Source of the DNA: Candidatus Bathyarchaeota archaeon
GTDB lineage: Archaea; Thermoproteota; Bathyarchaeia; Bathyarchaeales; Bathycorpusculaceae
Length of the DNA: 64,000 nt
Direction: 5' to 3'
Assembly (NCBI GenBank): GCA_003151735.1
Contig: PLYI01000054.1
Coordinates: 62,001 to 126,000 of the forward strand
Shown: piece after piece, positions 2,848 to 49,767 of the stretch
How the letters are laid out: every line of letters begins with the position of its first letter
How positions within the stretch are numbered: the first letter of the stretch is position 1
The notes under the pieces: generated by a model
Seen by the model: the letters and a program-made list of their open reading frames with translations, nothing else
Database searches by the model: none
What the model was told of the DNA's origin: nothing
Made by a program: the position numbers and the translations under genes

Positions 2848-2921
2848 TTAATTACTCCGAAAAATGTCATTACGACCTACCCTTAGGTTTCTGCAATGAT
2901 ATCCTATTAGGATTCATATTT
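2848..2921 (+). repeat. Dispersed intergenic repeat, copy A (short form)
   Basis: This copy starts TTAATTACTCCGAAAAATG and continues through GACCTAC, CCTTAGGTTTCTGCAAT and ATCCTATTAGGATTCATAT. It aligns with copies B (15045-15144) and C (32215-32315) but lacks about 24 bases in the middle. The TCCTATTAGGA core is an inverted repeat. It lies in the divergent spacer between trmO and the broken glycerophosphodiesterase, in the same orientation as the other copies. Confidence 0.65.
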
Positions 2922-2983
2922 GAAGTTAGTTTTTTAATAAAATTTCAGCAAGATATTATTCTTCGATTAACCAAATCTATGAT

Positions 2984-3658
2984 ATGTTGCGTGTTGGTCA
3001 CCGAGGCGCGAGGGCTTATGCTCCCGAAAATACTTTGACAAGTTTTAAGAAAGCTTTAGAAATCGACGTAGACGCGGTTGAGTTAAACGTTAGAAAAACC
3101 AAAGACAACCAACTGATCGTCATTCACGATGCGGATGTTAAGCGGACAACTAACGGTGAAGGCTGGGTAAGTGAACTTACGCTTGCGCAGGTCAAAAGTT
3201 TTTCTGCTGAGGGCGAAGAGAAGATTCCGACTTTGGAGGAGGCGCTGGATTTCTTGGATAAGAAAGTGAAGGTTTTGATTGAGTTGAAGGAAGCGGGCGT
3301 TGAAGAACAGGTACTCTCGATAGTGTGCAAAAAGGGTCTTGAGAAAAACGTTGTAAATCATATCTTTCCTCGAAGAGGCACTCAAAAAAGTTAGAGCACT
3401 AAGCAAAGAAATCGAAACAGGATTAATCTACGCCAAACATAGCAACCCAATAAAGCAGCATTGGAACTAAAAGCAAACTACCTCATTGCACTTTACAGGT
3501 TTACTCATACAGCCACTGTTCAGAAAGCCCTTGAAAACGGATTAAAAGTCATCGTCTGGACCATAAATAGCCCAGAAGAAGCCCAAGAATACGCAAAAAA
3601 AGGCGCAGACGGAATCGCCAGCGATAAACCAGACATACTCAAGGGACTTAATACATAG
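2984..3658 (+). pseudogene. Glycerophosphodiester phosphodiesterase with two frameshifts
   Basis: GDPD enzymes hydrolyse glycerophosphodiesters to glycerol-3-phosphate and an alcohol. The start RVGHRGARAYAPENTL carries the HRG and PEN signature, followed by VELNVRKTKDNQLIVIHDAD and a TTNGEG turn. The first frame ends at 3394. Homology moves to another frame at about 3360 (SFLEEALKKVRALS) and again at about 3450 (ALELKANYLIALYR), ending with VIVWTINSPEEA and GIASDKPDIL. The summed product would be about 225 residues, close to the family norm of about 240, so only the reading frame is broken. This is either a recent pseudogene or two assembly indels. Confidence 0.8.
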
Positions 3659-4574
3659 CTACCCGTGCTTTGAGAACCCGCTCAATCCGCTCCACATCCG
3701 ATTTGCTCTCGCTGTTTAGTGGCGTCAGTTGTATTTCAACTGGAGACTTAACTCCAAAACCCAGTTCTGCCGCCCTTTTCAGCTGATCCTGCTCAAAAAC
3801 GTCGGCTTCTTCAACTTTCCCTTTAGCACCATACATTTTCAGAATCGCTACTCCAACGGCATCTATGGCTACGCGGTCTTTGCTTGCCAACAAAAGATTA
3901 GGCTCAACCACCTTGCCCTTTTCAGGACCGCCCGTAACGAACGCTTTTATCCCATCCATCAACACAAAGTCCACGTTGTAGTGACTGTTGATTTCAGCAA
4001 TCATCTGCCTCTGAAACGGTGAACCGTGCAGTTCCCACATGTAATCGTACATGCCGCCAGGCACCTTCTTCGCAACCAACCCTACGGAGTTTTTCAGTGA
4101 CAGAGTAAAGTGGCCGCCAAACCTGTGGGTTTTCAGGCAGCAGGTTTGAACGACCTTGTCAGCATCATGGAAAACCTTAGCCATGTAGAAACCTCTTAAC
4201 CAATGGTTAGCGTCCCGCTCAAACTTAACCCAGTCCTCTTTGCCAACGTCGTCCAAAACGACTACATTAAAACCCAGCACTTTCGATAGTTCTAAAACGC
4301 CCATTTGTTCCCGTACTTGCGCGGTGTCGCCCATGCCGCTGCGTTCAGCCAACGTTATCTCGCTGGCGTATGCTCCTTTGAGGGTTTCAACGATTGCCCT
4401 TAACGCGTCTATGTGCGTTGATGCGGGAAATGGGTCTGCACTGTTAAAATTAGCTTTCAAAGCAACATGCTTACCAGAAAAATCTGCTAAGTCAAACTTG
4501 CTCAGCAACGCAGGGACGCCTGTTGCTCGATCCTTTGTTTTAAGAATAAAAACTTCGCCTAAATAATTAGCCAT
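3648..4574 (-). CDS. DUF362 domain-containing protein
   Basis: The protein covers most of the DUF362 domain: VALKANFNSADPFPASTH, TLAERSGMGDT, the CCLKTHRFGGHFTLSLKN block and VDFVLMDGIKAFVTGGPEKG. DUF362 proteins are widespread in archaea and anaerobic bacteria, sometimes fused to ferredoxin domains. No ferredoxin cysteines are present here, and the biochemical role is not established. I chose the ATG at 4574 over the TTG at 4589; GGAG sits about 9 bp upstream of it. It is convergent with the broken GDPD gene and overlaps its 3' end by 11 bp. Confidence 0.8.
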   Translation of the reverse strand: MANYLGEVFILKTKDRATGVPALLSKFDLADFSGKHVALKANFNSADPFPASTHIDALRAIVETLKGAYASEITLAERSGMGDTAQVREQMGVLELSKVLGFNVVVLDDVGKEDWVKFERDANHWLRGFYMAKVFHDADKVVQTCCLKTHRFGGHFTLSLKNSVGLVAKKVPGGMYDYMWELHGSPFQRQMIAEINSHYNVDFVLMDGIKAFVTGGPEKGKVVEPNLLLASKDRVAIDAVGVAILKMYGAKGKVEEADVFEQDQLKRAAELGFGVKSPVEIQLTPLNSESKSDVERIERVLKARVAMY

Positions 4575-4691
4575 TAAAAACTGCTCCAAGAAAATATGGA
4601 GCCGCTTTGTTATTAGTCTTTACTGCATCAAGCTGCAACAACAAAACCGCAAGCTCTATATTACTCAGTGAAGCCCTTTTTCAAACCATGC

Positions 4692-4769
4692 GGGTCCGTA
4701 GCTCAGTCAGGCTAGAGCATCGGACTCTTAATCCGAGGGTCGCGGGTTCAATTCCCGTCGGACCCGCCA
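4692..4769 (+). tRNA. tRNA-Lys (anticodon CTT), CCA encoded
   Basis: A full cloverleaf can be drawn: acceptor GGGTCCG/CGGACCC, T8-A9, D-stem GCTC/GAGC, anticodon stem TCGGA/TCCGA with loop CTCTTAA (anticodon CTT), variable loop GGGTC, T-arm GCGGG/CCCGT with TTCAATT, discriminator G and encoded CCA (4767-4769). There is no intron. It is nearly identical to tRNA-Lys(TTT) at 62187-62264, differing at the wobble base and one T-loop base. Confidence 0.95.
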
Positions 4770-4780
4770 ATTTTTACACG

Positions 4781-4951
4781 TTATTTCCACTTTGTCAGTA
4801 TCTCTTCTCGCTTGAATGTTGATTTGCTCAAGAAGAATAGAAATACATCAGCGATTGCTACAATAGCAGAGAAGATCAGAAGATTATCAACACTGAACGC
4901 AAACAGTCCTTCCGCTCCTGCAAAGAATACAGCAAAGAACGGAATAAACAT
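4781..4951 (-). CDS. Putative 56-aa membrane protein
   Basis: A short minus-strand ORF just beyond tRNA-Lys. It encodes MFIPFFAVFFAGAEG, a second hydrophobic stretch (LLIFSAIVAIADVFLFFL) and a charged cytosolic-looking tail (FKREEILTKWK), giving two predicted membrane segments. An ATG in a neighbouring frame upstream starts MKKNGFSYKK and would join in frame if one base were removed from the CTTCTTCTTCC tract, so the true N-terminus may be longer. There is no clear Shine-Dalgarno. The amphipathic pattern and basic tail make it more convincing than the overlapping plus-strand frames. Confidence 0.45.
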   Translation of the reverse strand: MFIPFFAVFFAGAEGLFAFSVDNLLIFSAIVAIADVFLFFLSKSTFKREEILTKWK

Positions 4952-5027
4952 GGAAGAAGAACAACACTTTCTTATAGGAAAAGCCGTTTTTCTTCATCTA
5001 ACAAAAAAAGGAGTGATTGCTGGCTTT

Positions 5028-5963
5028 CTAAAGTCTACGGGGTTTCTGGAATGGCTGACTTTTTGGTTGGTCAGGGTTCAGTTTGGTTTCTGCTGTTAGG
5101 AGTTGTTTTAGGCGCAAGGCAAGTACGTCGCGGTCGTTGGGTTGCTGTTGCGTCCATTGTGCACGATATTCTCGGAATTCTTGTCCTGTGATTTTGCCCT
5201 TTGTTTGCAGCTCGCTAAGTAGCTTTACGAACGCTCTTAGTTCCAGCTGTTCGTTGGTTACTGCGTTTATGGTTTTTCCTTCTCCTGATGGGTTGGTTGT
5301 GGGTTTTTCGCTGTCTGGCGGGGGATAATTGTTGTATAAGAAAACCGCAAAGTACAAGGCGTCCCAGCCGCGGGTTAAGGGTAAACTGTTTTTGGCTGCT
5401 ATCAGCTCCTCAGTGTAGTGTTCATATTCTTGTCCGAACGAAAAATACTTCGTTTGCCCGCTGGGTGCAACGACGACGCGGTTAACAAAATGGCGCAGAT
5501 GCTGATTATTAAAAATCGGCAGGACCGAGCCGCTTTCATAGCTAAAGCAGAATATGATTTCTTTAGCGAGTTGCTTGTCCTGTCCTAACCCGCCTATTCT
5601 TTCCCATGGGGCGTCGACTCTTTGGGCAAGGGACTTTCGGTTGTCCACTGCGACGCGGAGCAGGTTTTTGAAGTCTCCGATTTGCAGGCGGGCGTTGCGG
5701 TAAACGTTGGAGCTGTTTAGGGTTGAGCGGCCAAGGGGTTTGAGGGAGCCTTCTAGGAGGCGGAAGAATTCGCCGACTTCATCAGGGTTTATCTTGAAGA
5801 GTTTGTCGGCATCCAAGTATTCTATTGACCGAAGATTTTCGGTGAAAGGATACTTTTTCCTGAACTCTTTGAGTAATGCAAGCGCTCTATCGACTTCCGT
5901 GCGGGTTACTTTGACTCGGTCGTATGTGGTTGCTTTTTCAAGCATAGAGTTGCTTCGGGACAT
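5028..5963 (-). CDS. Hypothetical archaeal protein (311 aa)
   Basis: I do not recognise this protein with confidence. The N-terminal 90 residues are helical and charged (RALALLKEFRKKYPF). The centre carries WERIGGLGQDKQLAKEIIFC, resembling a helix-hairpin-helix turn, followed by VLPIFNNQHLRHFVNRVV. The C-terminal 90 residues are polar, with a Pro/Ser/Thr linker and a helical segment (LRAFVKLLSELQTKGKI). No membrane segments or signal peptide are visible. The HhH-like turn hints at nucleic-acid binding, but this is only inference. It stands alone as a minus-strand unit between the small membrane ORF and the broken DUF1634 gene. Confidence 0.65.
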   Translation of the reverse strand: MSRSNSMLEKATTYDRVKVTRTEVDRALALLKEFRKKYPFTENLRSIEYLDADKLFKINPDEVGEFFRLLEGSLKPLGRSTLNSSNVYRNARLQIGDFKNLLRVAVDNRKSLAQRVDAPWERIGGLGQDKQLAKEIIFCFSYESGSVLPIFNNQHLRHFVNRVVVAPSGQTKYFSFGQEYEHYTEELIAAKNSLPLTRGWDALYFAVFLYNNYPPPDSEKPTTNPSGEGKTINAVTNEQLELRAFVKLLSELQTKGKITGQEFREYRAQWTQQQPNDRDVLALRLKQLLTAETKLNPDQPKSQPFQKPRRL

Positions 5964-6053
5964 TTCAAACCAAACCAGATGTTAAATACAATAGAAATGC
6001 AGGTATAACGGTTAAACCTTACCGCACTGGAATTCACAACATCAATTTTGCAT

Positions 6054-6405
6054 CTAGAATAGATAATGCAGAGCCAGACTTATGGTTAGCACAACGAGGA
6101 CAAAGAGGGTTATTACAACGTATTGAGGTTCTTGCTCCATGCAAAGTAGATCACAAAGGCGACTGCGCGTATGAAGGGCGTCAAAATTAAAATTATCAGC
6201 CCCAACGTCATAAACAACAGGGCTTTGGCTGAAACAAACAGGTTTTGAACTTTAACGTAAATGAGCGCGAAAAAGTTTTCTCCCACGATAAAACGGTTTT
6301 GTCTTGGGAAACCATGTCGAGCATGCGCCATCCCCGGGCTAAAAAAAAGATACCAGTTATTAAACCGCCAACAACCCAAAAAAGAATATTAATCTTGAAA
6401 GGGAT
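6054..6405 (-). pseudogene. Broken DUF1634-like membrane protein
   Basis: Three minus-strand frames together resemble a DUF1634 integral membrane protein: a first hydrophobic segment in one frame (NILFWVVGGLITGIFFLARG), a second in another (TLGLIILILTPFIRAVAFVI), and a third in a further frame (YVVITLFVLVVLTISLAL) ending at TAG 6054-6056. At least two frameshifts separate them, at about 6140 and between 6250 and 6300, and no start joins cleanly to the first segment. The gene is therefore broken, or the assembly is locally wrong. The family assignment rests on the LTPFIRAV turn and spacing, so it is moderate. Confidence 0.5.
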
Positions 6406-6425
6406 GTTTGGATTCCGTGACAGCC

Positions 6426-6836
6426 ATGACGAAGCAAGTGTTCATTTCAGGCCCAATAATAGGCATGGAAAAACAGCAGGACTACCGAAAAACCATCACC
6501 GACTTCTGCGTAAAATTGGGGTTTGATGTGATTGACCCATGGAAGAGGGAAAGAGTGCTCTATAATGGAACTGAGGAGTGCTGGTGGGACAAGGTGCCGA
6601 CCTTCGATTTTGTCCAAAGAGACCTCGATGACGCTGACCGATGCGACATCATGGTTGTTTACTTACCCATACTGTCGGCGGGAGCCTGCATGGAAATGTT
6701 CTATGCCAAACGCAAAGGCAAAAAAGTGATTGTTGTGTCGGAAGTGAAGTGCCTGAGCCCATGGATTGTGTTCCACTCAGACATGATAATTAAAAGTTTT
6801 AGACAGCTTGAAGAAGTGCTGAAAAAATTTCTATAG
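6426..6836 (+). CDS. Nucleoside 2-deoxyribosyltransferase-like protein
   Basis: This belongs to the nucleoside deoxyribosyltransferase/N-glycohydrolase fold. The sequence opens VFISGPIIGMEKQQDYR, has VIDPWKRERVL, a conserved acidic stretch (FVQRDLDDADRCDIMVVYLP) and a SAGACMEMFYAK motif carrying the likely catalytic Glu. The length of 136 residues fits the family. Substrate is unknown; nucleotide salvage or sanitation is a reasonable guess. I chose the ATG at 6426, directly before the first strand. A longer start at 6408 would add MDSVTA. It is convergent with the OB-fold gene and overlaps its end by 6 bp. Confidence 0.75.
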   Translation: MTKQVFISGPIIGMEKQQDYRKTITDFCVKLGFDVIDPWKRERVLYNGTEECWWDKVPTFDFVQRDLDDADRCDIMVVYLPILSAGACMEMFYAKRKGKKVIVVSEVKCLSPWIVFHSDMIIKSFRQLEEVLKKFL

Positions 6837-7332
6837 CACTTTGAGGTAGCTCCCATTCACGGTCGACGAAACCAAAAGCATGTTGGAATACATCATATCC
6901 TCAACCCATGGACGATAGTAGCCGCTTACCTCAACCCCTTGCCCAACCGCCAATGGCGGGCAATCGGTTCTCTCGTAATAAACAAGTAGTTCCCCATGCG
7001 GTAGACTGTAAATGGGATTGTTGCTGGAATTGTTGCTCGATATAATGTTCGTTATCTTCAGGGTTATGTAAGCGGGAAATACGTGGTAGCTAGCCAATGT
7101 TAATTTCGTGGTTAAGTGCCACTGTGCTTATTGTTCCGTTAATCGCTAAATTAGCGACGGCTTGGTCTTGAAAGTTCTCAGGATAATCTTCTCGGATGAG
7201 GTTTGTGGCACTTGCCGAAATCAACACCGGTGACACCAAAACCGCAAATGTAGCAACAGAAAATGACTTTCTTCTTGGCAAGCGACCGGTCTTTGGAGTC
7301 AACGGTTGTTTTGGGAGAACTCCGGTTGGCAC
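6831..7332 (-). pseudogene. Membrane-anchored OB-fold protein with a frameshift
   Basis: The first part has a basic stretch (RLPRRKSFS) then a hydrophobic segment (VATFAVLVSPVLISA) and the start of a beta domain (LAINGTISTVAL), ending at a stop at 7090. The second part (YHVFPAYITLKITNII, then ELLVYYERTDCPPLAVGQGV and EVSGYYRP) is in another frame and looks like the rest of one OB-fold, somewhat like CcmE-type domains but without an obvious heme His. The two halves meet at about 7090-7097, so a single indel seems to have split one anchored extracytoplasmic protein. The start is uncertain; a GTG at 7332 follows the preceding gene's stop. Confidence 0.5.
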
Positions 7333-7333
7333 C

Positions 7334-7597
7334 CTATTGGTTATTAGTGTAGAGACCGAGGACAGCACCAATAATCAATGTGGCTAATACAATGGCAAAA
7401 CCCCAAGAAAACGTAATCAAGGACCAAGGTGGCGAGACCATTTCCAAAAAGGCTGCCACAACTAACAAGACACTTATTCCGCCCTTAAACCTGGGAAATT
7501 TCAGTTACACAATCAGAGCCACCGCCAAAATTATGATGAAGACGAGACCAATCACAAGTTTGTATGGGGCAAAGATAACCAATAGGGCAGTTATCAT
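7334..7597 (-). pseudogene. Small membrane protein interrupted by TAA
   Basis: An 88-codon frame starts at ATG 7597 (MITALLVIFAPYKLVIGLVF), is hydrophobic, and meets an in-frame TAA at 7505-7507. The same frame then continues with LKFPRFKGGISVLLVVAAF and two more hydrophobic stretches to TAG at 7334-7336. Without the TAA it would be a protein of about 86 residues with three or four membrane segments. It directly precedes the OB-fold gene, so the two probably formed one operon. I do not recognise the family. Confidence 0.45.
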
Positions 7598-7643
7598 GAG
7601 ATATTAATTGGATAAGTTAGCTTAAGAAATTTGTCCCCAAAGT

Positions 7644-9248
7644 CTACTTCTTCTGAAACTCCTCGCGTATCTTCATCTGCCGTCTCTTAAGGTTGTATCC
7701 CAGCGAGAAGTCGTGGGCTGCGTCTCGGATTTTCCTTAGCAAAAGCATCATTCGGCTGTTCTTATCAAAGTTTCTTGGTGCAGATTCGTTTGGAAGGTAG
7801 ATTTCTTCATGTTCCTTAGCTAAACTGATGAGCGGAAGCTTGAGCCTGAGGGTTTGCAGGGCTGTATTTGCTGCGCTGACTTGTCCTGGTCCACCGTCAA
7901 TTACCACTAAATCAGGCAGGGGGTTTTTCTCTTCTATTTGGCGCTTGTACCTCCTTGCAACGACCTCGTTGACTGCAGCAAAGTCATCCTGCCCCATGAA
8001 AGTTTTGATTTTGAACTTGCGGTAGTTTTTCTTGTCGGGTTTGGCATCTCTGAAGGTAACCATGCCTGAAACCACATGTTCAGTTCCCAAGTTAGATATG
8101 TCAAAGCATTCGATTATGTGAGGTAGCGTTGGAAGGTTCAGGTTGTTCTGCAAATCCACCAGCGCGCTGTCAACATCTAAGCCTGACTCAAGGTTTTTCT
8201 CTGCCAACTGCAAAAGCGCCAGCTTATCATCTCGCCTTGGAATCCGCAACGAAACAGGAGCATTGCGTTTTGCTGAGAGGAACTCTTCCAACGCAGCTTT
8301 TTCTTCAGGTCCCTGCCAACACGGCTTGTTAAGCAGTATTTCACGTGGAATCGGATTTGTTGTGTAGAACGCCTTCAAAAATTCCTGTTCAATTTGCGGT
8401 TGCAGATCTACGCTGAATTCTTTTTTGCCCAGAAGCACGCCTCTTCGCACACCCATCTGAACCGCCAACATTTTCTCGCCAAACTGTTTAAACGCCATCA
8501 CGTCCTGGTCAAAACGCCGCTCGTTATCTACAATTTGATGCTCGGTTACGAGCCGGATGGATTGGATTTGGTTGCGAAGGTCAAGCGCCTCCTCGTACTT
8601 TTGGGTGCTGGAGGCTGTTTCCATCTGCGATTTAAGTTGCTCGATTGTTTGCCTATAATTTCCGTTCAGAAAGGAGCGTGCCTGACGCACCTGTTCACTG
8701 TACTGTTCGGCGGTGACGTTTCCGATGCATGGAGCTGTGCAGAGGTGAATGTGGAAGTTTAGGCAAGCCCGTTTATGTAGCGTTTTGCAGGTCCGCAGTT
8801 TGAATACTCGAACTACTAATCGTTGCAGGTCCTGTCTTGTGAAGCCGTCGGTGTAGGGGCCGAAGGATTCAAGTTTTCGCGACACTTTGCGGCTTGTAAA
8901 TATCCTTGGATAATCCTCGCGTGTCAGCGAGATGTAAGCGAAGGTTTTCGCGTCTTTGAGGTTGATATTGTATTTGGGTGTATGCTGCTTAACCAACTTG
9001 TTTTCCAAGAGCAATGCTTCAACCTCATTATTCACCACAATCCAATCGATACTCCTAATTCTAGAAACCAACTGTTGGGTCTTGATGGGTTGGTCAGAGG
9101 TTGAAAAGTAGCTTTTGACACGTGACCTGAGGCTTTTTGCTTTGCCCACATATAGGATTTCGCCTGCTTCATCCCTGTACAGATAGACGCCTGGATGTGT
9201 CGGTATATCGGAGCTTTTGAAGTCTTGGGGGCACTTTATCTGAATCAT
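7644..9248 (-). CDS. uvrC: UvrABC excinuclease subunit C
   Basis: UvrC makes the 3' and 5' incisions around lesions marked by UvrAB. Order of domains: GIY-YIG nuclease at the N-terminus (THPGVYLYRDEAGEILYVGK), a Cys-rich segment (CKTLHKRACLNFHIHLCTAPC), a UVR motif (YEEALDLRNQIQSI), and the RNase H-like nuclease (IECFDISNLGTEHVVSGM; DLVVIDGGPGQVSAA). At 534 residues it ends right after RKIRDAAHDFSLGYNLKRR, so the C-terminal tandem helix-hairpin-helix domain of bacterial UvrC is absent, and no HhH-coding sequence follows. Its ATG overlaps the uvrA stop (ATGA), showing translational coupling. Confidence 0.97.
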   Translation of the reverse strand: MIQIKCPQDFKSSDIPTHPGVYLYRDEAGEILYVGKAKSLRSRVKSYFSTSDQPIKTQQLVSRIRSIDWIVVNNEVEALLLENKLVKQHTPKYNINLKDAKTFAYISLTREDYPRIFTSRKVSRKLESFGPYTDGFTRQDLQRLVVRVFKLRTCKTLHKRACLNFHIHLCTAPCIGNVTAEQYSEQVRQARSFLNGNYRQTIEQLKSQMETASSTQKYEEALDLRNQIQSIRLVTEHQIVDNERRFDQDVMAFKQFGEKMLAVQMGVRRGVLLGKKEFSVDLQPQIEQEFLKAFYTTNPIPREILLNKPCWQGPEEKAALEEFLSAKRNAPVSLRIPRRDDKLALLQLAEKNLESGLDVDSALVDLQNNLNLPTLPHIIECFDISNLGTEHVVSGMVTFRDAKPDKKNYRKFKIKTFMGQDDFAAVNEVVARRYKRQIEEKNPLPDLVVIDGGPGQVSAANTALQTLRLKLPLISLAKEHEEIYLPNESAPRNFDKNSRMMLLLRKIRDAAHDFSLGYNLKRRQMKIREEFQKK

Positions 9249-12148: not shown

Positions 12149-12226
12149 AACCTAAACCAAATTCCTATACACTATATTTTGTAACCAGTTTGACCGGGAA
12201 GATTAGAACCTTTTTGCATTAAATCG

Positions 12227-14806: not shown

Positions 14807-15044
14807 ACTAATAAGGAAAATTAGTGGGCTGATTGTGCTTACCCTGAAGGCAAAAATTGATACAGCCGCTGCAAAAGCTATGATGACGGCGAAAAACGCG
14901 ATTTCTTTTCTTAAAACCTAACTTAAACAAATCAGGTCTAAAATAAAAAAATTTCTAAATTACAATAACGACAAAAATCAAGAGCGTTGAAAAATTGAAA
15001 AAATGGTTTAACTAACAATGAGCTTCAGAAATTCCAAAAAAATC

Positions 15045-15144
15045 TTAATTACTCCAAAAACGGCCAATACTGACCTACCACTCTTAGTGAATTGCCACCC
15101 CCTATAGGTTACTGCAATTATTGGATATTAGGATCCAAATATGC
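15045..15144 (+). repeat. Dispersed intergenic repeat, copy B
   Basis: This copy begins TTAATTACTCCAAAAACGG, contains ACTGACCTACC, CTTAGTGAATT, CCCCCTATAGGTTACTGCAAT, and ends TATTAGGATCCAAATATGC. The last 19 bases are identical to copy C. It sits in the 410-bp spacer upstream of the heme membrane protein and downstream of the PepSY gene. The rest of that spacer shows no gene. Confidence 0.7.
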
Positions 15145-16609: not shown

Positions 16610-17977
16610 TTAAATCGACCCTACCAGGAAGATCAAAACCAGAATCACTATGGCTAAACTGACGGCTGATATGGTGATGCGTTTAACCATTGAGAATTCG
16701 GGTTTGAGTACCCCAACAACCATGGTGGCTACTGCGCCTAGCCACACGTAGGATACTATGAACATTCCTGAGACGACGGTTCTGAAGGCGAATGTTGATG
16801 CCTCAATGCTGTTGAAGATAGTTGTTGAAGCTGCGGGTAGTGTACGTAGTGCTTCGGCAGGGTAATATAATGCTGCGTATGGGTCAAAGCGTATACCTAG
16901 CGATAGATCATAGGGGTAATAGATGTTTGGCATGGTGAACGTGGCGGCAAGATTAACTAATCCGCGAATAACCATGATGAACATTGCAAAGCCTATTGCT
17001 ACAAATAGTGCTTTCCAAACCACGGTACCTTTCAGTATTCTGCAGAACAAGTAGATTAGCGCCGTTAATATGAACCAGGCGATGAGAAACTGTAGCGAGA
17101 ACAGTTGTAAGAATTGCAGCGCAACTCCCGTGGCATTGTATTGGACAGATGTTAAGTATTGACCGTGGAAGAAGAGGGCGCCGACTTCGATGTTTATGTT
17201 TGAGCTTGTTGGGTAAGTGAAGTCAAGTTTTAATCCTGTTATATTACCCCATTCTGGAGCGCCGCTACTTGTCCAGCCAGAAACGTTTGGTCCAAGGGTA
17301 AGTGTAATGTTAGTCCATTGGCCAATGTTTGATGTGTTTGACAATAGAGACGTTAAATCATACATGTAATAATTTGCGTCCCCATTCGAGTATAGGGTTA
17401 TTGCAGCGCTTTGGGGTACCACTTGCGGCTGAACCTGCTTTAGTGTTATGGATAGGTTCTGGAAGGCGCTTGGACTGCAATCAACAGTTAAGCTGGAAAG
17501 GGGAGTAGCCTTCTGGGCAACCAGGGTTTGGTTGATGCTTCCTAACGCTGACACCATATCTAAAGCCGCAGTTAAGGAGCTTGTATTGTTAACGCTCATT
17601 TCTAGACTGCTGTTTCCAAAGAGTCCAAAGTATGCCTTAGAATCAGTTGTCGGAAGCCCAAAACCTGCAACATAGACAGTATAATTATAGAAATCGTTGA
17701 AATTGTTGCTTAACGCAACGTTGGAACTGCTTCTCCACACCGAAGTTACGTTGTCAATTCCTATAAAGGTAGCATTGGAAAATGTGGATAGCTGATCGAT
17801 TGACGGCGTGGTTTGCTCAGTGTAAGTTTTAGAAAACTGCGAGTACTCATAACCCACTTCTAGACCAATAAATAGAAGTAAAACAATCAATGCACCGAGG
17901 TATTTCGGGTTCGAAACGATGTCTTTGAATACCTTATGCGGCGCATAAACGACTTTCAGGATGTCATCAATAATCAA
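16610..17977 (-). CDS. YIP1-family membrane protein with large extracytoplasmic insert
   Basis: The N-terminus has the YIP1 hallmark (DDILKVVYAPHKVFKDIVSN) and a first helix (LGALIVLLLFIGLEVGY). Then comes about 240 residues of Ser/Thr/Asn-rich extracytoplasmic sequence with many N-X-S/T sites. The C-terminal 170 residues hold five hydrophobic helices (LIAWFILTALIYLFCRIL; VWLGAVATMVVGVL). YIP1 proteins act in membrane organisation in eukaryotes; in archaea their role is unknown. The large luminal insert is distinctive. It is flanked by unrelated minus-strand genes, with spacers of about 130 and 215 bp. Confidence 0.7.
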   Translation of the reverse strand: MIIDDILKVVYAPHKVFKDIVSNPKYLGALIVLLLFIGLEVGYEYSQFSKTYTEQTTPSIDQLSTFSNATFIGIDNVTSVWRSSSNVALSNNFNDFYNYTVYVAGFGLPTTDSKAYFGLFGNSSLEMSVNNTSSLTAALDMVSALGSINQTLVAQKATPLSSLTVDCSPSAFQNLSITLKQVQPQVVPQSAAITLYSNGDANYYMYDLTSLLSNTSNIGQWTNITLTLGPNVSGWTSSGAPEWGNITGLKLDFTYPTSSNINIEVGALFFHGQYLTSVQYNATGVALQFLQLFSLQFLIAWFILTALIYLFCRILKGTVVWKALFVAIGFAMFIMVIRGLVNLAATFTMPNIYYPYDLSLGIRFDPYAALYYPAEALRTLPAASTTIFNSIEASTFAFRTVVSGMFIVSYVWLGAVATMVVGVLKPEFSMVKRITISAVSLAIVILVLIFLVGSI

Positions 17978-21149: not shown

Positions 21150-21188
21150 GAATACAAAAAGCGAAACCGCGAAAAAAATTAACCTGTT

Positions 21189-22586: not shown

Positions 22587-22725
22587 GCGCTACTAGTGAA
22601 AGCAAACAGGATTTAATTCTTTCTAGATCAGCCTTGAGCGTTAGCTAATCAATCTATTGCAACAAATCTGGTGTTCTAACAAGTAGCTTTAAAAGCAGTT
22701 CGCCTAATGAAGGGATTGATGATTA

Positions 22726-25602: not shown

Positions 25603-26462
25603 GCGGAATGAACGTAAAAATCCGAGACTTAGTCAAAGTGCACCACACAGGCAAAATAGAAGTACAAGCTCTCCGAGGCTTAAACCTAGACATAACAGCA
25701 GGCGAATTGGTTTCCATCATTGGCCCAAGCGGCAGCGGCAAATCCACACTGCTAAACATCATAGGCGGCCTAGACAAAGCCACAGCAGGCACCGTGCAAG
25801 TCGGAGAAAAAAATACCGAAGAAAAGTGGTTGGCCACATATTCCAAAACCTAAATTTAATCCCAACCCTGACAGCGCAAGAAAACATCGAATTTTCCATG
25901 GTTGCGTCAGGTGTCGCACGGGGCAAAAGAAAGCAGCGAGTTCAAGAATTACTAACAACTGTGGGCTTGCAAGACCGCGCACACCATAAGCCTGAAGAGT
26001 TAAGCGGTGGGGAACAGCAAAGAATCGCTACTGCCTCGGCGCTAGCTAATGATGCGCCGATTCTTCTGGCGGATGAACCAACTGGGGAGTTGGATACTGC
26101 GAATGCAAGAATCATTGCGGAGTACCTGGTTAAAATTAACCGTGAACTTGGCAAAACCATCATTATGGTGACGCATGACCCAAGTGTTGCACGTGTTTCA
26201 ACTAGGATATTGCGCATTGAAGATGGCGTCATAAAAACTGCTTTGGCACCTCAGAGGTCATTGTTCAGGAAAGAGCTGTTTCTTATGTGGATCAGATTAA
26301 AGCCAGAATCAGCGAAATCACCATGCAAATTCATCAGTTAGATAGTGACTTCCGCTCTGAAAAATTGACGGAGACGAATATGTCCAGAAACGCCAAAGCC
26401 TAAAAAACATCAAAGACAGCCTCAAAGAAGAATGCTCCCGAATGGGAGTTATTCCTCCCTAA
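25599..26462 (+). pseudogene. Decayed ABC transporter ATP-binding protein
   Basis: The ATPase partner of the broken permease. It starts [20 protein letters not shown] with Walker [20 protein letters not shown], then loses frame near 25840. Homology resumes in another frame with [16 protein letters not shown], signature ELSGGEQQRIATA, LLADEPTGELDT and MVTHDP. The stretch usually found before the Q-loop is shortened, suggesting a small deletion. After 26250 the C-terminal tail changes frame twice more (VSYVDQIKARISEITMQIHQ; RQSLKNIKDSLKEECSRMG), forming a coiled-coil extension ending at TAA 26460-26462. MacB/LolD-like, not functional as read. Confidence 0.85.
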
Positions 26463-26605
26463 AATCGCAATTTTTTTAACCAGACTCAATCTAATTAAAA
26501 ACTAATGGGCTTCACTTTCACTTAACCCTCCACTACGAAAAATACTCCTTTATTCGTTTGTTTTAAATATCCCTAACCATACATCATCCTAAAAGTGTGA
26601 AGATA

Positions 26606-27655
26606 ATGACTGAAGACTCCGATGTTGAAGCGCAGGAAAATAATGAACCAGAAGAATCTATTTTGGAAACAAACAGAAAAAAATATGAGTTCATAGAAGA
26701 CCTGCCAGGAGTCGGGCCAGCAACTGCGCAGAAACTCAAAGAACTAGGCTACCACACCGTGGAATCCTTAGCCATGGCAACAAGCCGTGAACTTGACCCA
26801 GTTGGAGTAAGCGAGAAAAAAGCCTTCCAAATCATTGAAGCCGCACGTTCATCCATCGGCATCTCATTTATCAGAGCAGACGAACTCTTCAAGATGCGCC
26901 AAACCGTCCTGCGTGTAACCACAGGCAGCAAAGCCTTAGACAAAGTCGTCGACGGCGGCTTAGAAACCCAAACCATAACAGAGTTTTATGGTGAATACGG
27001 TAGCGGCAAAAGCCAAATGTGCCATCAACTGTGCATCAATGTCCAGTTGCCTCCTGAAAGAGGTGGACTTAGCGGTGCAGCATTGTACATTGATACCGAA
27101 AACACATTCAGGCTGGAACGCATTGTGCAGATGGCAAAAGGGGCTGGTTTAGATCCTGCTGAAGTGGCTAAAAAAATTATTTACGCTGAAGCCTACACTT
27201 CAGACCATCAAATGTTCCTGCTTGAAAACGCTGATGAAATAATCAAAGCCAACAACGTTAAACTAATCATAGTGGACTCGTTAACTGCCCACTTCCGCAG
27301 CGAATATATCGGAAGAGAAATGCTCGCGTCAAGACAACAAAAACTCAACAAACACATGCATAAACTCATCGCGTTAGCCCGAGCATTCAACGCCGTAGCA
27401 GTTGTAACTAACCAAGTAATGGCTAAACCAGACCAATTTTTCGGCGACGCCATCCACCCAATAGGCGGAAACATCGTTGGCCACACAAGCGCTACACGAA
27501 TCTACCTCAGACGCGCTTCACATGGACCAATCCGCATCGCAAGGTTAGTTTCAAGTCCATATTTGCCTGAAGGCGAGGAAATCCTTAAAGTAACCGAGAA
27601 CGGAATAGAAGATGTCTCTGAAGAGGAGAAAGCAACTAAACCGCGTGGACGCTAA
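26606..27655 (+). CDS. radA: DNA repair and recombination protein RadA
   Basis: The archaeal Rad51/RecA recombinase that forms filaments on ssDNA and drives strand exchange. N-terminal helix-hairpin-helix domain (DLPGVGPATAQKLKELGYHT), linker FIRADELFKMRQ, Walker A FYGEYGSGKSQMCHQL, Walker B LIIVDSLTAHFRSEY, a loop with VTNQVMAKPDQFFGDA and GGNIVGHTSATRIYLRR. ATG at 26606 is preferred; a GTG at 26597 is also possible, and TTTAAATAT near 26565 is a good TATA box. It is followed after 2 bp by a gene with a PCNA-binding box, so the two form an operon. Confidence 0.97.
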   Translation: MTEDSDVEAQENNEPEESILETNRKKYEFIEDLPGVGPATAQKLKELGYHTVESLAMATSRELDPVGVSEKKAFQIIEAARSSIGISFIRADELFKMRQTVLRVTTGSKALDKVVDGGLETQTITEFYGEYGSGKSQMCHQLCINVQLPPERGGLSGAALYIDTENTFRLERIVQMAKGAGLDPAEVAKKIIYAEAYTSDHQMFLLENADEIIKANNVKLIIVDSLTAHFRSEYIGREMLASRQQKLNKHMHKLIALARAFNAVAVVTNQVMAKPDQFFGDAIHPIGGNIVGHTSATRIYLRRASHGPIRIARLVSSPYLPEGEEILKVTENGIEDVSEEEKATKPRGR

Positions 27656-27657
27656 GT

Positions 27658-28131
27658 ATGCCTATTTCACAAGCCTTAGTTACCAGGTACTTCCAGCTCA
27701 TAGTCAGCAGGCAATTCACCGAATCTGAACGTGAGTTGGAACGGGTTAAACAAAAAATGCAGAAAACCGAATGGAACAGAGGATACTTTAGGGCTCTTTA
27801 CGGCATGTATCTTTCACGCAAAAACAGCGCCACAGACGACTACGCATTCTTCTCAAAACTAGATTTAAGTGACAAAGTAACTTTGCATACTTATCGAAAA
27901 GAATTCCTCGAACACATGGGAAACGGTTTGCATGGAGACTTCGACCGCGGCTACTTTTCTGCTTGGGCAGACTGCATGCGTATTATAGCACGCATGGATG
28001 TTCCAGCTTCGACAAATGGCAATGGCAAAGCAGCTGGCGGAGAAGAAAAAATCGAAACGCTTAGAACCGATAAGAGTCAAGCAACTATAGCGAATTTTTT
28101 GGCTAAACCCGAAGAGGATAAAGAAGAATAA
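27658..28131 (+). CDS. RadA-operon protein with C-terminal PIP-box
   Basis: A 157-residue protein of unknown function starting 2 bp after radA. The first 105 residues are helical (LVTRYFQLIVSRQFTESERE; WNRGYFRALYGMYLSRKN; GDFDRGYFSAWADCMRII). An Asn/Gly-rich linker follows, and the acidic tail carries Q141-A-T-I144-A-N-F147-L148, which matches the PCNA-interacting consensus Qxx(I/L/M)xx(F/Y)x. I infer a PCNA-bound accessory factor in recombination or replication repair. No enzyme motif is visible. Confidence 0.75.
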   Translation: MPISQALVTRYFQLIVSRQFTESERELERVKQKMQKTEWNRGYFRALYGMYLSRKNSATDDYAFFSKLDLSDKVTLHTYRKEFLEHMGNGLHGDFDRGYFSAWADCMRIIARMDVPASTNGNGKAAGGEEKIETLRTDKSQATIANFLAKPEEDKEE

Positions 28132-28141
28132 AAAAATATTT

Positions 28142-28444
28142 TTAAGCTCTTCCAACAGCTACAAGAAATACTGTGTAGAAGAGGACAAAAAATGATAGCC
28201 AACTAAAGAAGTACATTCCTATGGCTGTGCTGAGGATTTTTGATTGTTTCTCTATTTTGCTTTTGTAGAATCCTCTTAGGATATAGTAGGTTACGAAGTA
28301 GATGAGCAAAGCCACTGTTATGCTGTTTACGAGGGTGGTTATCTCAGAGCCGCTTTCGAATAAAGCTGCTAAAACCGCAGTTATTGCTCCTGCAACAATT
28401 CCCAATGCAACTCTTAACCAGTAAAGCTGAACTACAGGCGTCAT
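28142..28444 (-). CDS. Small conserved-type membrane protein (100 aa)
   Basis: Three hydrophobic segments are visible: YWLRVALGIVAGAITAVLAA, SITVALLIYFVTYYILRG and IGMYFFSWLSFFVLFYTVFL. A short basic loop (YKSKIEKQSK) lies between the second and third. I do not recognise a named family; the overall plan of short helices and basic loop recalls EMC6-like archaeal membrane proteins, but this is weak. It is convergent with the RadA operon. Confidence 0.6.
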   Translation of the reverse strand: MTPVVQLYWLRVALGIVAGAITAVLAALFESGSEITTLVNSITVALLIYFVTYYILRGFYKSKIEKQSKILSTAIGMYFFSWLSFFVLFYTVFLVAVGRA

Positions 28445-28602
28445 GTGAATCGAATCCTTCCTCAGTATATTTTGTTCTTACTTAAAAAAGATGCCTAAGT
28501 ATTAATCGTTTCTGCCGCCTAAAGGGTGTTCCCCTAAGAATTCAGGGTTTTTAGTGAAAACGGTTATTTTATAGTCAGCAACTATAGATTCCTACAACAA
28601 CG

Positions 28603-30669
28603 GTGCAAGCATTGCGTAAAAAAGACTTCTCAAGCTTTGATATGGTAGCAGTAATCAAAGAACTAAAACAGACATTAGCCGATTCAAGAGTGAACAACAT
28701 CTACCAACTCGACGAAAAAACCGTAATCTTCAAACTCCACAAAACGGATTTGCCGCCTATACGGCTCGTGATCGAGGCAGGCAGAAGACTACACGCAACC
28801 AGCTACGCAGAAGAAAACCCAGCTGAGCCACCGTCATTCTGCATGGCACTCAGAAAATACCTGCGTAACGCATGGGTGGCTGGCATTGACCAGTATGAGT
28901 TTGAAAGAATCGTAACCGTAAGCTTTCGAACCAAAACTGGCTTGCTAAAGCTTGTTGTAGAGCTTTTCGGCGAAGGCAACATAATATTGACAAACGAGCA
29001 AAACGTGATTATTCATGCCTTAGCCTTCAAAAAAATGCGTGACCGCGACATCCTCCACAACGTAGTTCTTGAGCTTCCGCCTTCAAGCAGCAAAAACCCA
29101 TTCAAAGTAACCCAGGGTGAACTGGAAGAAGCCCTCAAAAACGCAGGCGAAACTGAAGTTGTCCGAGCAATAGTGCGTTTCTTGGGGGTTGGCGGAGTTT
29201 ACGCGGAAGAAATTCTGCTGCGAGCCAATATAGATAAAGCCAAGCATTGCAGCGTCCTGATAAGCGATGAAGTTAAAGGGATTTTTGGGGTCTTGCAAAC
29301 TTTGTTGGCTGCGGTTTCAGGTGGCAACTTGGAGGCTTGCATTGTTTTGGGGGAGGATGGGGACTTTGTGGATGTTGTGCCCATTAAACTGAAGCGTTAT
29401 GAAGGCTGCAAAACGCAAGTTTACGATTCATTCAATCAGGCTCTTGACGAATTTTATCTGCGGGTTATCACGGCGGAGAGGGCGTTTGCAAGCGTTGAAG
29501 TTGACAAGTTAAAAAAAGAGGGAGAGCGTCTAAGACGTGTTGTTGCGGAACAGGAAAAATCCATCCATGAAGATGAAGCTAAAGCAGAACGCGACAAACT
29601 CATAGGAGACACCATATACGCTCACTTTAACGAACTGCAAACATTCCAAGAGCAACTCCTCAAAGCCAACAATCAAGGACACAACTGGGAAGCAATCATC
29701 CAGCAAGTTATGGCGGCAAAGAAACTGGGCAAAATCCCTTCGACTTACGTTGAATCTTTTGACGGCAAAAATCTCGCTTTAAACCTTTCCATGGATAATT
29801 TCCATTACAGTTTTAACCTGCGAGATTCACTCTTCGACAACGCTAACAGATATTATGAGCATGGAAAAAGGGCTAAAGAGAAATCTCAAGGCGCCCTTTC
29901 CGCCCTTCAGGATTCTAAGAGGAAACTAGCTAAAATCGATTGGGAATTGGCAGAAGCGGAAGAAATCAAGAGCCTTAAACCAGCAGAAATGATGGAGGCA
30001 CTCTCCAAACGTAAAGTGGCGTTTGAGAATAAGGAGTGGTACGAAAAATTCCGGTGGTTTACTTCCTCGGACGGTTTCTTAGTGGTTGCGGGCAAAGACA
30101 CAGTCAGCAACGAAGTGCTCGTAAAAAAGTACACTATTCAGGACGATGCGGTTTTTCACGCTGAAATCACCGGCGCCCCGTTTGTCGTCATCAAGTCTGA
30201 GGGCAGACCGATAAGTGAGCAGGCGCTGCGTGAAGCTGGCGTGTTTGCAGGTTCTTTTTCTCGGGCGTGGCGTGAAAACGCGGGTTCAGTGGATGTTTAC
30301 TGGGTTAAGCTTGATCAGTTAAGTAAGAGTGGTCCTTCAGGCGAATCAGTTCCGCATGGCGCTTTCTTCGTTGTTGGAAAACGCAACTGGTTACGCAACG
30401 TGCCTCTCCGAGTTGCGGTCGGCATAATTGTTGGTGAGGAAACCAGCTTTGTGGGTGGCCCAGTCGAGGCGGTTAAGGCGAAAACCAAGGCTTACGTGGT
30501 CATTGTTCCTGGAGATATGGCTGGCAAAGAATTGCTTAAACAAATTCTCAAATCTTTAATGCTGAAGCTGACAAAGGAGCTACGGGAAAAAGCAGGAAAA
30601 ACATCGATTGAGCAAATCCGCGAGTTTGTGCCCTATACTAAAGGAACGATAAATCTGAAAGCAACCTAA
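28603..30669 (+). CDS. rqcH: NFACT-family ribosome rescue factor (RqcH/Rqc2 homologue)
   Basis: NFACT proteins bind stalled large ribosomal subunits with a peptidyl-tRNA and can direct C-terminal tailing. The N-terminal NFACT-N domain (FDMVAVIKELKQTLADSRVN; PSFCMALRKYLRNAW) is followed by a long coiled coil (residues about 295-480) and the NFACT-R domain (WYEKFRWFTSSDGFLVVAGK; YWVKLDQLSKSGPSGESV). Where bacterial and yeast proteins have an Asp-Arg pair needed for tailing, this one reads FERIVTV, a Glu-Arg variant. GTG at 28603 fits a leaderless start behind a TTTATAG box. At 688 residues it is full length for archaea. Confidence 0.92.
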   Translation: MQALRKKDFSSFDMVAVIKELKQTLADSRVNNIYQLDEKTVIFKLHKTDLPPIRLVIEAGRRLHATSYAEENPAEPPSFCMALRKYLRNAWVAGIDQYEFERIVTVSFRTKTGLLKLVVELFGEGNIILTNEQNVIIHALAFKKMRDRDILHNVVLELPPSSSKNPFKVTQGELEEALKNAGETEVVRAIVRFLGVGGVYAEEILLRANIDKAKHCSVLISDEVKGIFGVLQTLLAAVSGGNLEACIVLGEDGDFVDVVPIKLKRYEGCKTQVYDSFNQALDEFYLRVITAERAFASVEVDKLKKEGERLRRVVAEQEKSIHEDEAKAERDKLIGDTIYAHFNELQTFQEQLLKANNQGHNWEAIIQQVMAAKKLGKIPSTYVESFDGKNLALNLSMDNFHYSFNLRDSLFDNANRYYEHGKRAKEKSQGALSALQDSKRKLAKIDWELAEAEEIKSLKPAEMMEALSKRKVAFENKEWYEKFRWFTSSDGFLVVAGKDTVSNEVLVKKYTIQDDAVFHAEITGAPFVVIKSEGRPISEQALREAGVFAGSFSRAWRENAGSVDVYWVKLDQLSKSGPSGESVPHGAFFVVGKRNWLRNVPLRVAVGIIVGEETSFVGGPVEAVKAKTKAYVVIVPGDMAGKELLKQILKSLMLKLTKELREKAGKTSIEQIREFVPYTKGTINLKAT

Positions 30670-30805
30670 AACAAGTTGCTTGACTCTAAGCTTACTATTG
30701 TCGGTTAGACGTATGTCAATGTTTTATGATTTGTTATGAACAATTCACAACTGCAGTTATATTTAGCTGAGCATTCAACTGACTAAAAGGTAATATGGTG
30801 AAAAT

Positions 30806-30898
30806 GTGTTTGCAATAATCGATTTAGTTTCAATAGCTGTAATAGTTGCGTCATTTGCCTTTGTAATGTACAAAATCAGATCAGAAATCAAAGAGTAA
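30806..30898 (+). CDS. Putative 30-aa single-helix membrane peptide
   Basis: A GTG-start ORF with GGTGA 4-5 bp upstream. The product FAIIDLVSIAVIVASFAFVM is one membrane helix followed by YKIRSEIKE, a charged tail. Size and plan fit archaeal small membrane proteins. There is no homology evidence, and the spacer is AT-rich, so it remains tentative. It lies between NFACT and the 61-aa ORF. Confidence 0.4.
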   Translation: MFAIIDLVSIAVIVASFAFVMYKIRSEIKE

Positions 30899-30938
30899 TG
30901 CAAGAAACCAAGCCCTAAATTAGCCAGGATTGAGAAAT

Positions 30939-31124
30939 ATGGAATTCAAAAACATAAGCGAAGCATTAAAATTCATAACTCATGAAGCAAAAGCCTATCC
31001 AAGTGAAATAGAATACTACGCATCAGAAGAATACAAAAAAATCTATCCTGAACTTTGCCGCCTAAATCGCATACTACAAGATGCCTACACAGTTCACCAT
31101 GAAGATAGCAACGTTCCGCTTTAA
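30939..31124 (+). CDS. Hypothetical 61-aa soluble protein
   Basis: A small charged, helical product (EFKNISEALKFITHEAKAYP; YYASEEYKKIYPELCRLNRI). There is no signal peptide, membrane segment or metal motif. ATG at 30939 is preferred over one three codons upstream. It is convergent with the monooxygenase-domain gene, which ends 12 bp downstream. Function unknown. Confidence 0.55.
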   Translation: MEFKNISEALKFITHEAKAYPSEIEYYASEEYKKIYPELCRLNRILQDAYTVHHEDSNVPL

Positions 31125-31136
31125 GCTGAGACTGGT

Positions 31137-31436
31137 TTATTGTGGACGCTGAAAAAGTTCAGTTGAATACACTCTGTAATTTTCTATTCTTGGCTCTTTT
31201 TCAAGTGAGTCATGGACTTTTTTGATGGCTGCGGCATAGACTTCTCTCTCAGACTTCTTTAAGGCATCTTCATCTTGCCACAGCGTCAGGATAGTTACTG
31301 CATTGGGGTCTTCAAAGGAAAACATCGACATGTAGCCGCGAAAGCCCTCCGCCTCCTGAGCTAGGGTGTTTAGTATGCGGTCAAGTTCTGAAAAACCTTC
31401 TTCCCGTTTCCCCTTTTTGAAGTACCAAAAAGACAT
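31137..31436 (-). CDS. Antibiotic biosynthesis monooxygenase-like (ABM) domain protein
   Basis: A single dimeric alpha/beta-barrel of about 99 residues: SFWYFKKGKREEGFSELDRI, EAEGFRGYMSMFSFEDPNAV, then TILTLWQDEDALKKSE. This is the ABM/stress-responsive barrel plan, a fold used for cofactor-free oxygenases, heme degraders and stress proteins. No specific catalytic residues can be named, so the reaction is unknown. ATG at 31436 is preferred over an upstream TTG. Confidence 0.7.
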   Translation of the reverse strand: MSFWYFKKGKREEGFSELDRILNTLAQEAEGFRGYMSMFSFEDPNAVTILTLWQDEDALKKSEREVYAAAIKKVHDSLEKEPRIENYRVYSTELFQRPQ

Positions 31437-31579
31437 TCTGGCTAAAACCAACAAATTTCACCTAAAAACAATTGTTATTACTTTCATTTATAGTTTTAAC
31501 GTTGACATTTCTGGGTGTTAAACTGTTAGGCGATTGCTAGGCTGCAGTACATTAGTTTTTTATTTTTAATTCACTAATA

Positions 31580-32203
31580 ATGAAAATGGGTTGTTTGTTG
31601 GATAAGGTTGACTTAAAAAAAGAGTTAAAAAATCTTTACAATCCGTCGTCAAAAGAAGTCACGGTCGTTGATGTTCCAGCTATGAATTTTCTGTTGGTTA
31701 ACGGCGAAGGTGCACCCGCATCACCCAAATACATCGAAGCTATTGAGGCATTATTTAGCGTCTCCTATACACTAAAATTTATAGTTAAGAAAGCAAAAGG
31801 CATCGATTACGCTGTCATGCCGCTTGAATGCCTATGGTGGGTAGACGACATAACCAAGTTCAGCGCGGACAAAAAAGATGAGTGGATGTGGACCGCTATG
31901 ATTATGCAGCCAAAATACGTTACTGCTGACGACATTAACTTGGCAGTTGAACAGGTAAAAAAGAAAAAGAACTTGTTTACGTTGCTCAAGGTTCGGTTTG
32001 AAAGTTTCAAAGAGGGATCTGCCGCACAAATAATGTATGTGGGACCGTTTTCCGCTGAGGGACCAACCATAGCGAAGATAAATGCACAAATCCAAAATAG
32101 CGGACACGCATTAAGCGGTAAACACCACGAAATCTACCTAAACAACCCAGCCAAAACGGCCCCGGAAAAATTGAAAACCATCATAAGACAGCCCATGAAA
32201 TGA
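31580..32203 (+). CDS. GyrI-like small-molecule-binding domain protein
   Basis: Matches the GyrI-like/COG4832 pattern: an N-terminal DLKKELKNLYNPSSKEVTVV, then VPAMNFLLVNGEGAPAS, YTLKFIVKKA, PLECLWWVDD and the C-terminal AQIMYVGPFSAEGPTIAKI with GHALSGKHHEIYLNNP. These stand-alone proteins bind hydrophobic or cationic small molecules and some hydrolyse toxic compounds; the ligand is unknown here. It has no DNA-binding domain, so is not a regulator by itself. It is convergent with the UDG gene; a repeat copy fills the spacer. Confidence 0.8.
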   Translation: MKMGCLLDKVDLKKELKNLYNPSSKEVTVVDVPAMNFLLVNGEGAPASPKYIEAIEALFSVSYTLKFIVKKAKGIDYAVMPLECLWWVDDITKFSADKKDEWMWTAMIMQPKYVTADDINLAVEQVKKKKNLFTLLKVRFESFKEGSAAQIMYVGPFSAEGPTIAKINAQIQNSGHALSGKHHEIYLNNPAKTAPEKLKTIIRQPMK

Positions 32204-32214
32204 CCTGCACCGTC

Positions 32215-32315
32215 TAATGGCTTGAAAAATCGTCGATACCGACCTCCCCATCTTAGGATTTTAACCTACCCCTATAGGTTTCCGCAATCATATTCTATTA
32301 GGATCCAAATATGCA
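32215..32315 (+). repeat. Dispersed intergenic repeat, copy C
   Basis: TAATGGCTTGAAAAATCG, then ACCGACCTCCCCATCTTAGG, AACCTACCCCTATAGGTT and TATTAGGATCCAAATATGC. Two inverted-repeat cores are visible: AACCTA/TAGGTT and TCTATTAGGA. It fills the convergent spacer between the GyrI-like gene and the UDG gene. Copies B and C share the terminal 19 bases exactly. Confidence 0.7.
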
Positions 32316-49764: not shown

Positions 49765-49767
49765 TTA

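Follow-up and report, generated by a model that had tools for sequence, protein, structure and literature searches.

A dispersed modular repeat in the window

The window analysed here comprises 64,000 nt of the genome of a Candidatus Bathyarchaeota archaeon (positions 62001-126000 of contig C49; the genome, G000 in the following, has 3.5 Mb on 124 contigs). Bathyarchaeia are widespread and hardly cultured. The window holds four copies, A to D, of R1, an abundant repeat family whose short modular DNA elements are spread across the genomes of some Bathyarchaeia. The copies, and the palindromic cores of two of them, are:

2843-2921, plus strand: R1 copy A, short form, with the 5′ module and one core unit; palindrome altered (TATTAGGATTCATATT); R1 profile 65.5 bits, E 9.8e-18
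15041-15143, plus strand: R1 copy B, long form with an additional GACCTACC..CTTAG module; GGATCC core intact; R1 profile 54.6 bits, E 2.4e-14
15126-15141, plus strand: palindromic core of copy B, TATTAGGATCCAAATA, read in the sequence
32214-32313, plus strand: R1 copy C, long form, matched in two pieces (model positions 34-85, 3′ piece, E 2.7e-12; 7-53, 5′ piece, E 0.002)
32296-32311, plus strand: palindromic core of copy C, TATTAGGATCCAAATA, read in the sequence
59596-59641, plus strand: R1 copy D, 5′ half only (R1 positions 2-49, E 4.4e-5); no core unit recognised

The first collection of the family used the DNA of copy C as query, and with BLAST this query gave 46 matches in G000 (E ≤ 10, both strands). 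The R1 profile is sequence-only and was built from 22 short copies, with copy A among its rows and copies B, C and D excluded. In G000 it matched 116 times at E ≤ 1, and 104 of these matches reached E ≤ 1e-3 (one long copy may score as two matches). The 116 include each of the four window copies, which confirms the original prediction that they belong to one dispersed family. The exact 19-base 3′ end claimed for copies B and C was seen again on reading both copies, and the placement in spacers holds for all four, which lie outside the mechanically called open reading frames (ORFs) of at least 90 amino acids. No named family had been recognised, and the copies gave no Rfam match at gathering level. 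The common orientation is true of the window copies and does not extend beyond them: in G031, a relative assembled into three contigs, 33 of the 74 distinct R1 sites are on the plus strand and 41 on the minus strand.

Modular structure and core palindrome

The best-conserved part of R1 is a core of two boxes, TTTCTGCA-(9 nt)-TATTAGGATCCAAATA. The 3′ half of this core is a near-perfect 16-bp palindrome centred on GGATCC (TATT-A-GGATCC-A-AATA), in which 7 of 8 positions per arm are self-pairing. Over 190 core units the boxes carry 1.1-2.0 bits per position, compared to 0.1-1.1 bits in the stretch between them. Read from its 5′ end, R1 has a 5′ module, (CTACTGG)TTTTCAACATGCTAATG..GCCAATA, which is optionally followed by GACCTACCCCTCTTAG and a few bases. 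The core unit, (ACCTACCCCnCTATAGG)TTTCTGCAnnGAnnnnCTATTAGGATCCAAATA, comes next, present one to three times, and a GGTTCGTTG-like sequence often lies behind it; part of the G031 and G000 copies have an additional 3′ extension. Similarity between loci stops within about 40 bp of both R1 sides (40 loci, 40-bp bins). The CCTA/TAGG arms (TCCTA/TAGGA and AACCTA/TAGGTT), which had first drawn attention to the repeat, are present in some copies and missing from others, and it is the GGATCC-centred palindrome that is best conserved. An avoided restriction site was considered for GGATCC and dismissed, since the window contains 5 such sites versus 3.6 expected.

An exact gapped pattern was searched in 84,980 species genomes and found 35 stretches, solely in three Candidatus Bathyarchaeota metagenome-assembled genomes (MAGs; Zod_Metabat.546, AM-2014_bin-0583 and fen_992). 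Although six lengths were permitted, all 35 matches were 34 nt long. Core positions 8 and 19 were A or T only in 114 of 114 units from G000, G031 and G061. Outside the middle stretch, transversions and transitions were counted at 102:66 in G000, 64:11 in G031 and 36:5 in G061; because equal rates would give 2:1, only the latter two ratios stand out. Covariation between the palindrome arms did not exceed that of shuffles. In the core, nearest-neighbour, covariation and variation counts, the units from G016, G037 and G081 were mostly collected via the exact pattern and are biased at the pattern positions.

The constant 34-nt spacing and the two A/T-only positions would fit a host DNA-binding protein of the nucleoid, segregation or occlusion type that uses R1 as a chromosome-wide site, which selection would maintain and which would vanish once the protein is lost. 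Random orientation also suits a palindrome. We regard such a binding site as an unlikely though not negligible alternative, and the observations that bear on it are given below.

By eye, a second recurring spacer box was seen near R1, TATA-box-like and similar to GACTATAGCCCCCTTATTTAAAGC or GACCTCCYCTCCCTTATATAAAGC. It lies near 3850-4115 and 17350-17500 in G016 (locus L066) and upstream of R1 in G081 (L050, L051 and L065).

Distribution among Bathyarchaeia

The genus, family and class were scanned with stricter filters than those of the own-genome search. Of 90 genomes from the taxonomic family, 42 (G000 included) had R1 matches at E ≤ 1e-3; together with the 104 matches in G000, this confirms the expectation of further copies in the genome and in its relatives. 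Within the genus (32 genomes), eight genomes reached the upper limit of the scoring (at least 50 matches), one had 12 and three had 2-3, and none was found in the other 20. A sample of 250 genomes of the class, with 18 candidates scored per genome, gave matches in 52 genomes and none at E ≤ 1e-3 in 198. Chance similarity is rejected, because 104 of the 116 own-genome matches reached E ≤ 1e-3 while none was found at this level in these 198 genomes. Two R1 patterns gave 0 matches in viral contigs.

Beyond the own family, matches numbered 1-3 per genome, were of E 1.3e-7 or weaker, and were confined to a single further family of the order, f4. There the two-box core, compared by eye, is kept with altered letters. 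In three f4 genomes of one genus (G153, G199 and G126; loci L253, L254 and L256) one R1-like site and its flanks are nearly identical, and this site was probably inherited vertically. The nearly all-or-none copy numbers within the genus and the survival of the core in f4 fit a binding site; the 20 of 32 same-genus genomes without a match speak against it. It is because core variation is restricted and the core survives in the second family that we do not rate this explanation lower.

In a one-gene tree of UvrA, which comprised 29 of the 32 genus genomes (G012, G019 and G022 were left out) and had 10 of 26 inner branches open, the R1-free label needs 5 changes, of which well-supported branches force at least 4, and this adds to the picture of a patchy presence. 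The R1-rich label was not clustered (6 changes versus a shuffled mean of 7.1, with 104 of 500 shuffles as low). For 0.69 of 144 core units the nearest neighbour belonged to the same species, compared to 0.25 in shuffled data.

A miniature element and an insertion sequence in the palindrome

Two R1 copies of G000 are split by a nearly identical insert. This insert is a miniature element of 120-121 bp with terminal inverted repeats (TIRs) of ~18 bp, GAGGGGTGTGCATTATTC and GAGAAGTGTGCATAATTC. A genome-wide search of G000 gave eight strong matches (E ≤ 1.8e-20), the other 15 rows being short and of E ≥ 0.004. All eight (seven near full-length, one truncated) adjoin R1, in both orientations, and the R1 matches beside them end at model position 77-78, which is GGATCC. 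The 6-bp flanks of the element are identical in three of the seven full-length copies and have one or two mismatches in the other four. Among the identical ones are variant-letter flanks, GACTCC at L128 and GGCTCC at L132, and this argues for a true target duplication. The 120-121-bp element thus combines TIRs, a target duplication and a candidate parent insertion sequence (IS), which are the features of a miniature inverted-repeat transposable element (MITE). A further copy lies in R1 in G037 (L061); this copy, and initially also the IS described next, were found through R1.

The candidate parent is a 1,027-bp IS of G016, the TIRs of which match those of the miniature element. This IS interrupts an R1 copy, is bordered by GGCTCC on both sides and encodes a 284-aa DDE transposase (PF01609, E 2.9e-16) that stays below the cut-offs of the NCBIfam IS1182, IS5, IS982, IS4 and IS1634 models. 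In G037, too, R1 harbours an IS of 1.03 kb with matching ends. A protein search at E ≤ 1e-20 found 16 matches in 10 of the 90 genomes, and none in G000. Both ends of the IS could be placed for eight loci; at three others a single end was placed or an end was doubtful, and five rows were left out. Copies ending in GAG lie in R1 in two of three cases (G016, G037), while the third (G019) lies in a similar palindrome outside R1, TATTTGATTCCAATAA; perfect 6-bp duplications flank all three. By eye, none of the five copies ending in TAG (L170, L172, L173, L174, L180) lies in R1, and 7-bp duplications are present in two of these and not clear in three. This suggests that target choice changed within this IS lineage. 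The sequence GGATCCGGATCC in the R1 copy L003 could be the footprint of an excision.

At L149 (contig C44 of G000, 5231-5485) an 84-aa ORF looks, on visual inspection, like the last part of a DDE transposase, and a TAG-type right end lies just downstream.

RNA folding and gene orientation

A folded RNA had been one of three readings offered for R1 by the original prediction. The data do not support it. RNAalifold gave −2.66 kcal/mol for R1 with zero compensatory pairs, and the mean folding z-score of 60 copies was −0.41 on the plus strand and 0.04 on the minus strand, compared to 0.11 for 60 flank controls. Folding is thus no better than for shuffled sequences, and the covarying structure of a structured RNA family was not found by either approach. 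Strands of the neighbouring genes were compared, where callable, in three sets of 36, 16 and 31 loci. Plus and minus genes were counted at 20/11 (G000), 6/7 and 13/13 (named MAGs) upstream and at 15/13, 6/7 and 7/16 (named MAGs) downstream. Two of the three sets show a mild strand lean (upstream 20 versus 11 in G000, downstream 16 versus 7 in the named MAGs), the preference is inconsistent over the three sets, and cis-regulation was rejected on this ground. Sequence conservation in spacers and the mild lean are what an RNA, its gene, or a cis-regulatory leader or terminator could explain. Given the missing folding signal, the inconsistent gene orientation and the lack of an Rfam match for the window copies, we consider any of these very improbable.

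Spacing along chromosomes

In three genomes, R1 sites are spaced more regularly than expected at random. The coefficient of variation (CV) was 0.635 for the 74 sites of G031, compared to 0.924 in simulations (P 0.0002), 0.686 in G000 for a subset of 63 sites, those on its 14 contigs longer than 60 kb (P 0.009), and 0.651 for 45 sites on one contig of G061 (P 0.0013). Regular spacing would be in agreement with a binding site. The regularity of G031 is also reproduced by a general minimum distance of 10 kb (P 0.23). Close neighbours on the same strand were scarce over the three genomes (10 seen versus 27.1 expected, Poisson P 1.5e-4), whereas those on opposite strands were not (25 seen versus 27.1 expected); the direct split of 10 of 35 gave a two-sided binomial P of 0.017. 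The cut-offs for close pairs (15, 25 and 10 kb) were chosen after the gaps had been seen, and because of this and of the binomial P the same-strand shortage is exploratory. Excluding same-strand neighbours within 20-30 kb in G031, or within 30-50 kb in G061, reproduces the regular spacing. Even spacing as a sign of a functional array was dropped, as the shortage is confined to same-strand pairs, and this also weakens the case for a binding site. A strand-specific shortage points to deletion between direct repeats, or to selection against such deletion.

Site history across relatives

Site C lies behind a GyrI-like gene and faces a uracil-DNA glycosylase gene. R1 occupies it in G000, G016 and G037 with differing module content: an additional inner module in G000, a minimal form in G016 and two core units in G037. 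Next to the same gene pair in G020, no R1 was seen by eye. For site A, the homologous spacers of G016 (L066) and G015 (L074) gave no R1 match at E ≤ 0.1. At site B no comparison with G016 is possible, since the neighbouring ORFs are missing there; the spacer of G037 is shorter and gave no R1 match. One R1 copy of G016 falls where the aligned window flanks stand 30 bp apart. A partial cross-species sample (41 sites of G000, 20 of G031, 13 of G037, 12 of G081 and 7 of G016, the site C copy of G016 being absent) gave three pairs matching on both flanks (two between G000 and G037, one between G000 and G031) and five matching on one flank only. Some R1 positions thus persist with changed content, and others are not shared.

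Retention of site C in three species would agree with a binding site. The small number of sampled sites matched between species does not, though the sampling is partial. We also considered a wider form, in which a predicted Bathyarchaeia DNA-binding protein uses the 34-nt two-box core and its GGATCC palindrome as a site system, selection keeps this core across genera and as far as a second family, sites are refilled modularly at old positions, and the IS has adapted to the site as a safe landing pad. Loss of the protein would then let dozens of sites decay together and produce the all-or-none pattern. To this form we give only a small chance.

Gene order in the window departs from that of G037 contig C82 near 18196, 46093-46459 and 59502, and one of these breakpoints has a G037 R1 copy (L071:12847) nearby.

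Mobility of R1 and its most probable nature

Among the three readings of the original prediction, a non-autonomous mobile element is the most likely one. The patchy high-copy distribution and the species-specific copies support this part of it, and the target-site duplications that would complete it were not seen. We think it probable, with appreciable doubt, that R1 is dispersed, non-coding, modular palindromic DNA that resembles repetitive extragenic palindromic (REP) elements and MITEs in manner, and that its palindrome serves as a landing site of a DDE-type IS. R1 would multiply in lineage-specific bursts, and close direct copies may be lost or selected against via homologous recombination, as the strand-specific shortage suggests. 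The GG(A/C)TCC-type palindrome would be the landing site of both the IS and the 120-121-bp miniature with its like ends; position and 6-bp duplications point to this. The IS presumably mobilises the miniature element.

Several observations weigh against this view. No target duplication was found around R1 in 62 copies from four species (27 of G000, 26 of G031, 9 other). An autonomous form of R1, carrying a gene, was not seen, no search having been aimed at elements with R1 ends. No clean empty R1 site was obtained, because the compared spacers are too diverged, and copies can be long-lived, given the retention of site C in three species and of other sites in two. The R1-free label is still clustered on the UvrA tree (shuffled mean 9.0 changes, with 1 of 500 shuffles as low as the tree). 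The restricted core variation and the survival of the core in the second family suggest constraint, as in a binding site. Finally, terminal inverted repeats of R1 were judged only by eye and without statistics, from a possible, imperfect similarity of the two ends, TTTTCAAC..CTATTGG and TCAACGAACCTATTTGG, in G031 copies.

This possible end similarity would suit a classical MITE, an element derived by deletion from one DDE-type IS and moved by cut and paste. The size of about 85-180 bp, the intergenic location and the sharp ends would suit it as well. The variable 3′ end of R1 does not, and words common to the left and right flanks were no longer within than between copies (P 0.84 for the 27 copies of G000, 0.88 for the 26 of G031). 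A classical MITE appears to us even less probable than a binding site.

The Y1 transposase PF01797 was detected in 15 of the 90 genomes: 5 of 23 R1-rich ones (at least 12 matches), 1 of 19 with 1-11 matches and 9 of 48 without R1. It was not found in G000, G016 and G031, nor in 18 of the 23 R1-rich genomes; in control genomes it was detected in 5 of 14. A link to REP-associated tyrosine transposases (RAYTs) was rejected, since the distribution of this RAYT-type transposase does not track R1. R1 is a high-copy extragenic palindrome like a REP, and the stable single-strand hairpin of REPs was not found in the 60 copies folded with RNA parameters (mean z −0.41 and 0.04). Because R1 has no target duplication and Y1 does not track it, we assign R1 neither to the MITEs nor to the REPs.

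Two further features of the window concern other subjects. A thiamine pyrophosphate (TPP) riboswitch aptamer (Rfam RF00059, 61.2 bits) lies at 49763-49876 on the plus strand, in a seemingly archaeal genome. At 59723-61321 on the minus strand, a protein with a CdvA-like coiled-coil domain is encoded, the proline-rich part of which matches Extensin_1 below the cut-off.

Comparison with known systems

Sites of nucleoid occlusion or of partition, for example Noc-binding sites, are dozens of dispersed short palindromes. By this general description R1, with its dozens of dispersed palindromes, resembles them; unlike them, its palindrome lies within a larger repeat and is not found in many close relatives. 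Pneumococcal BOX elements consist of ordered boxes with an inner unit in variable number. R1 also has ordered boxes and a variable number of inner units, a likeness of general layout. BOX elements are mentioned in PMC10969869.

REPs recognised by RAYTs (TnpA-REP) are dispersed extragenic palindromes with composite multi-unit forms, as described in PMC8266576 (see also PMC2817692), and R1 shares these properties. A further feature of REPs is a GTAG- or CGTC-type tag beside the stem (PMC3733652). R1 differs from the REP/RAYT system in having no folding signal and in the 18 of 23 R1-rich genomes where PF01797 was not found. A 2025 survey reports REPs in archaea (PMC12306157); its main text contains no word starting with bathyarch, transposase or insertion sequence. 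Among the papers listed by literature searches on Bathyarchaeia and Bathyarchaeota and on archaeal repeats in general, no description of such repeats was found.

The nearest known match to the arrangement of R1 and its IS appears to be ISRm22 in the REPs of Sinorhizobium meliloti, an IS4 family element with a Transposase_11 domain (Tobes and Pareja 2006, PMC1525189). The table of that study gives 10 of 10 ISRm22 copies in REPs, and its text nine copies, six of them with perfect repeats; it describes 6-bp direct repeats and insertion on the axis of the REP palindrome. R1 likewise is a high-copy extragenic palindrome with an IS inserted in it and 6-bp duplications. In contrast to that study of 19 bacterial genomes, the host is an archaeon, the repeat has a larger size and a modular build, and the target is used by a miniature element, too. 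If our interpretation is right, the GAG-ended IS that targets the palindrome and its TAG-ended relatives elsewhere form a natural experiment on a change of target choice, and archaea, like bacteria, have a dispersed palindromic repeat together with an IS that depends on it.

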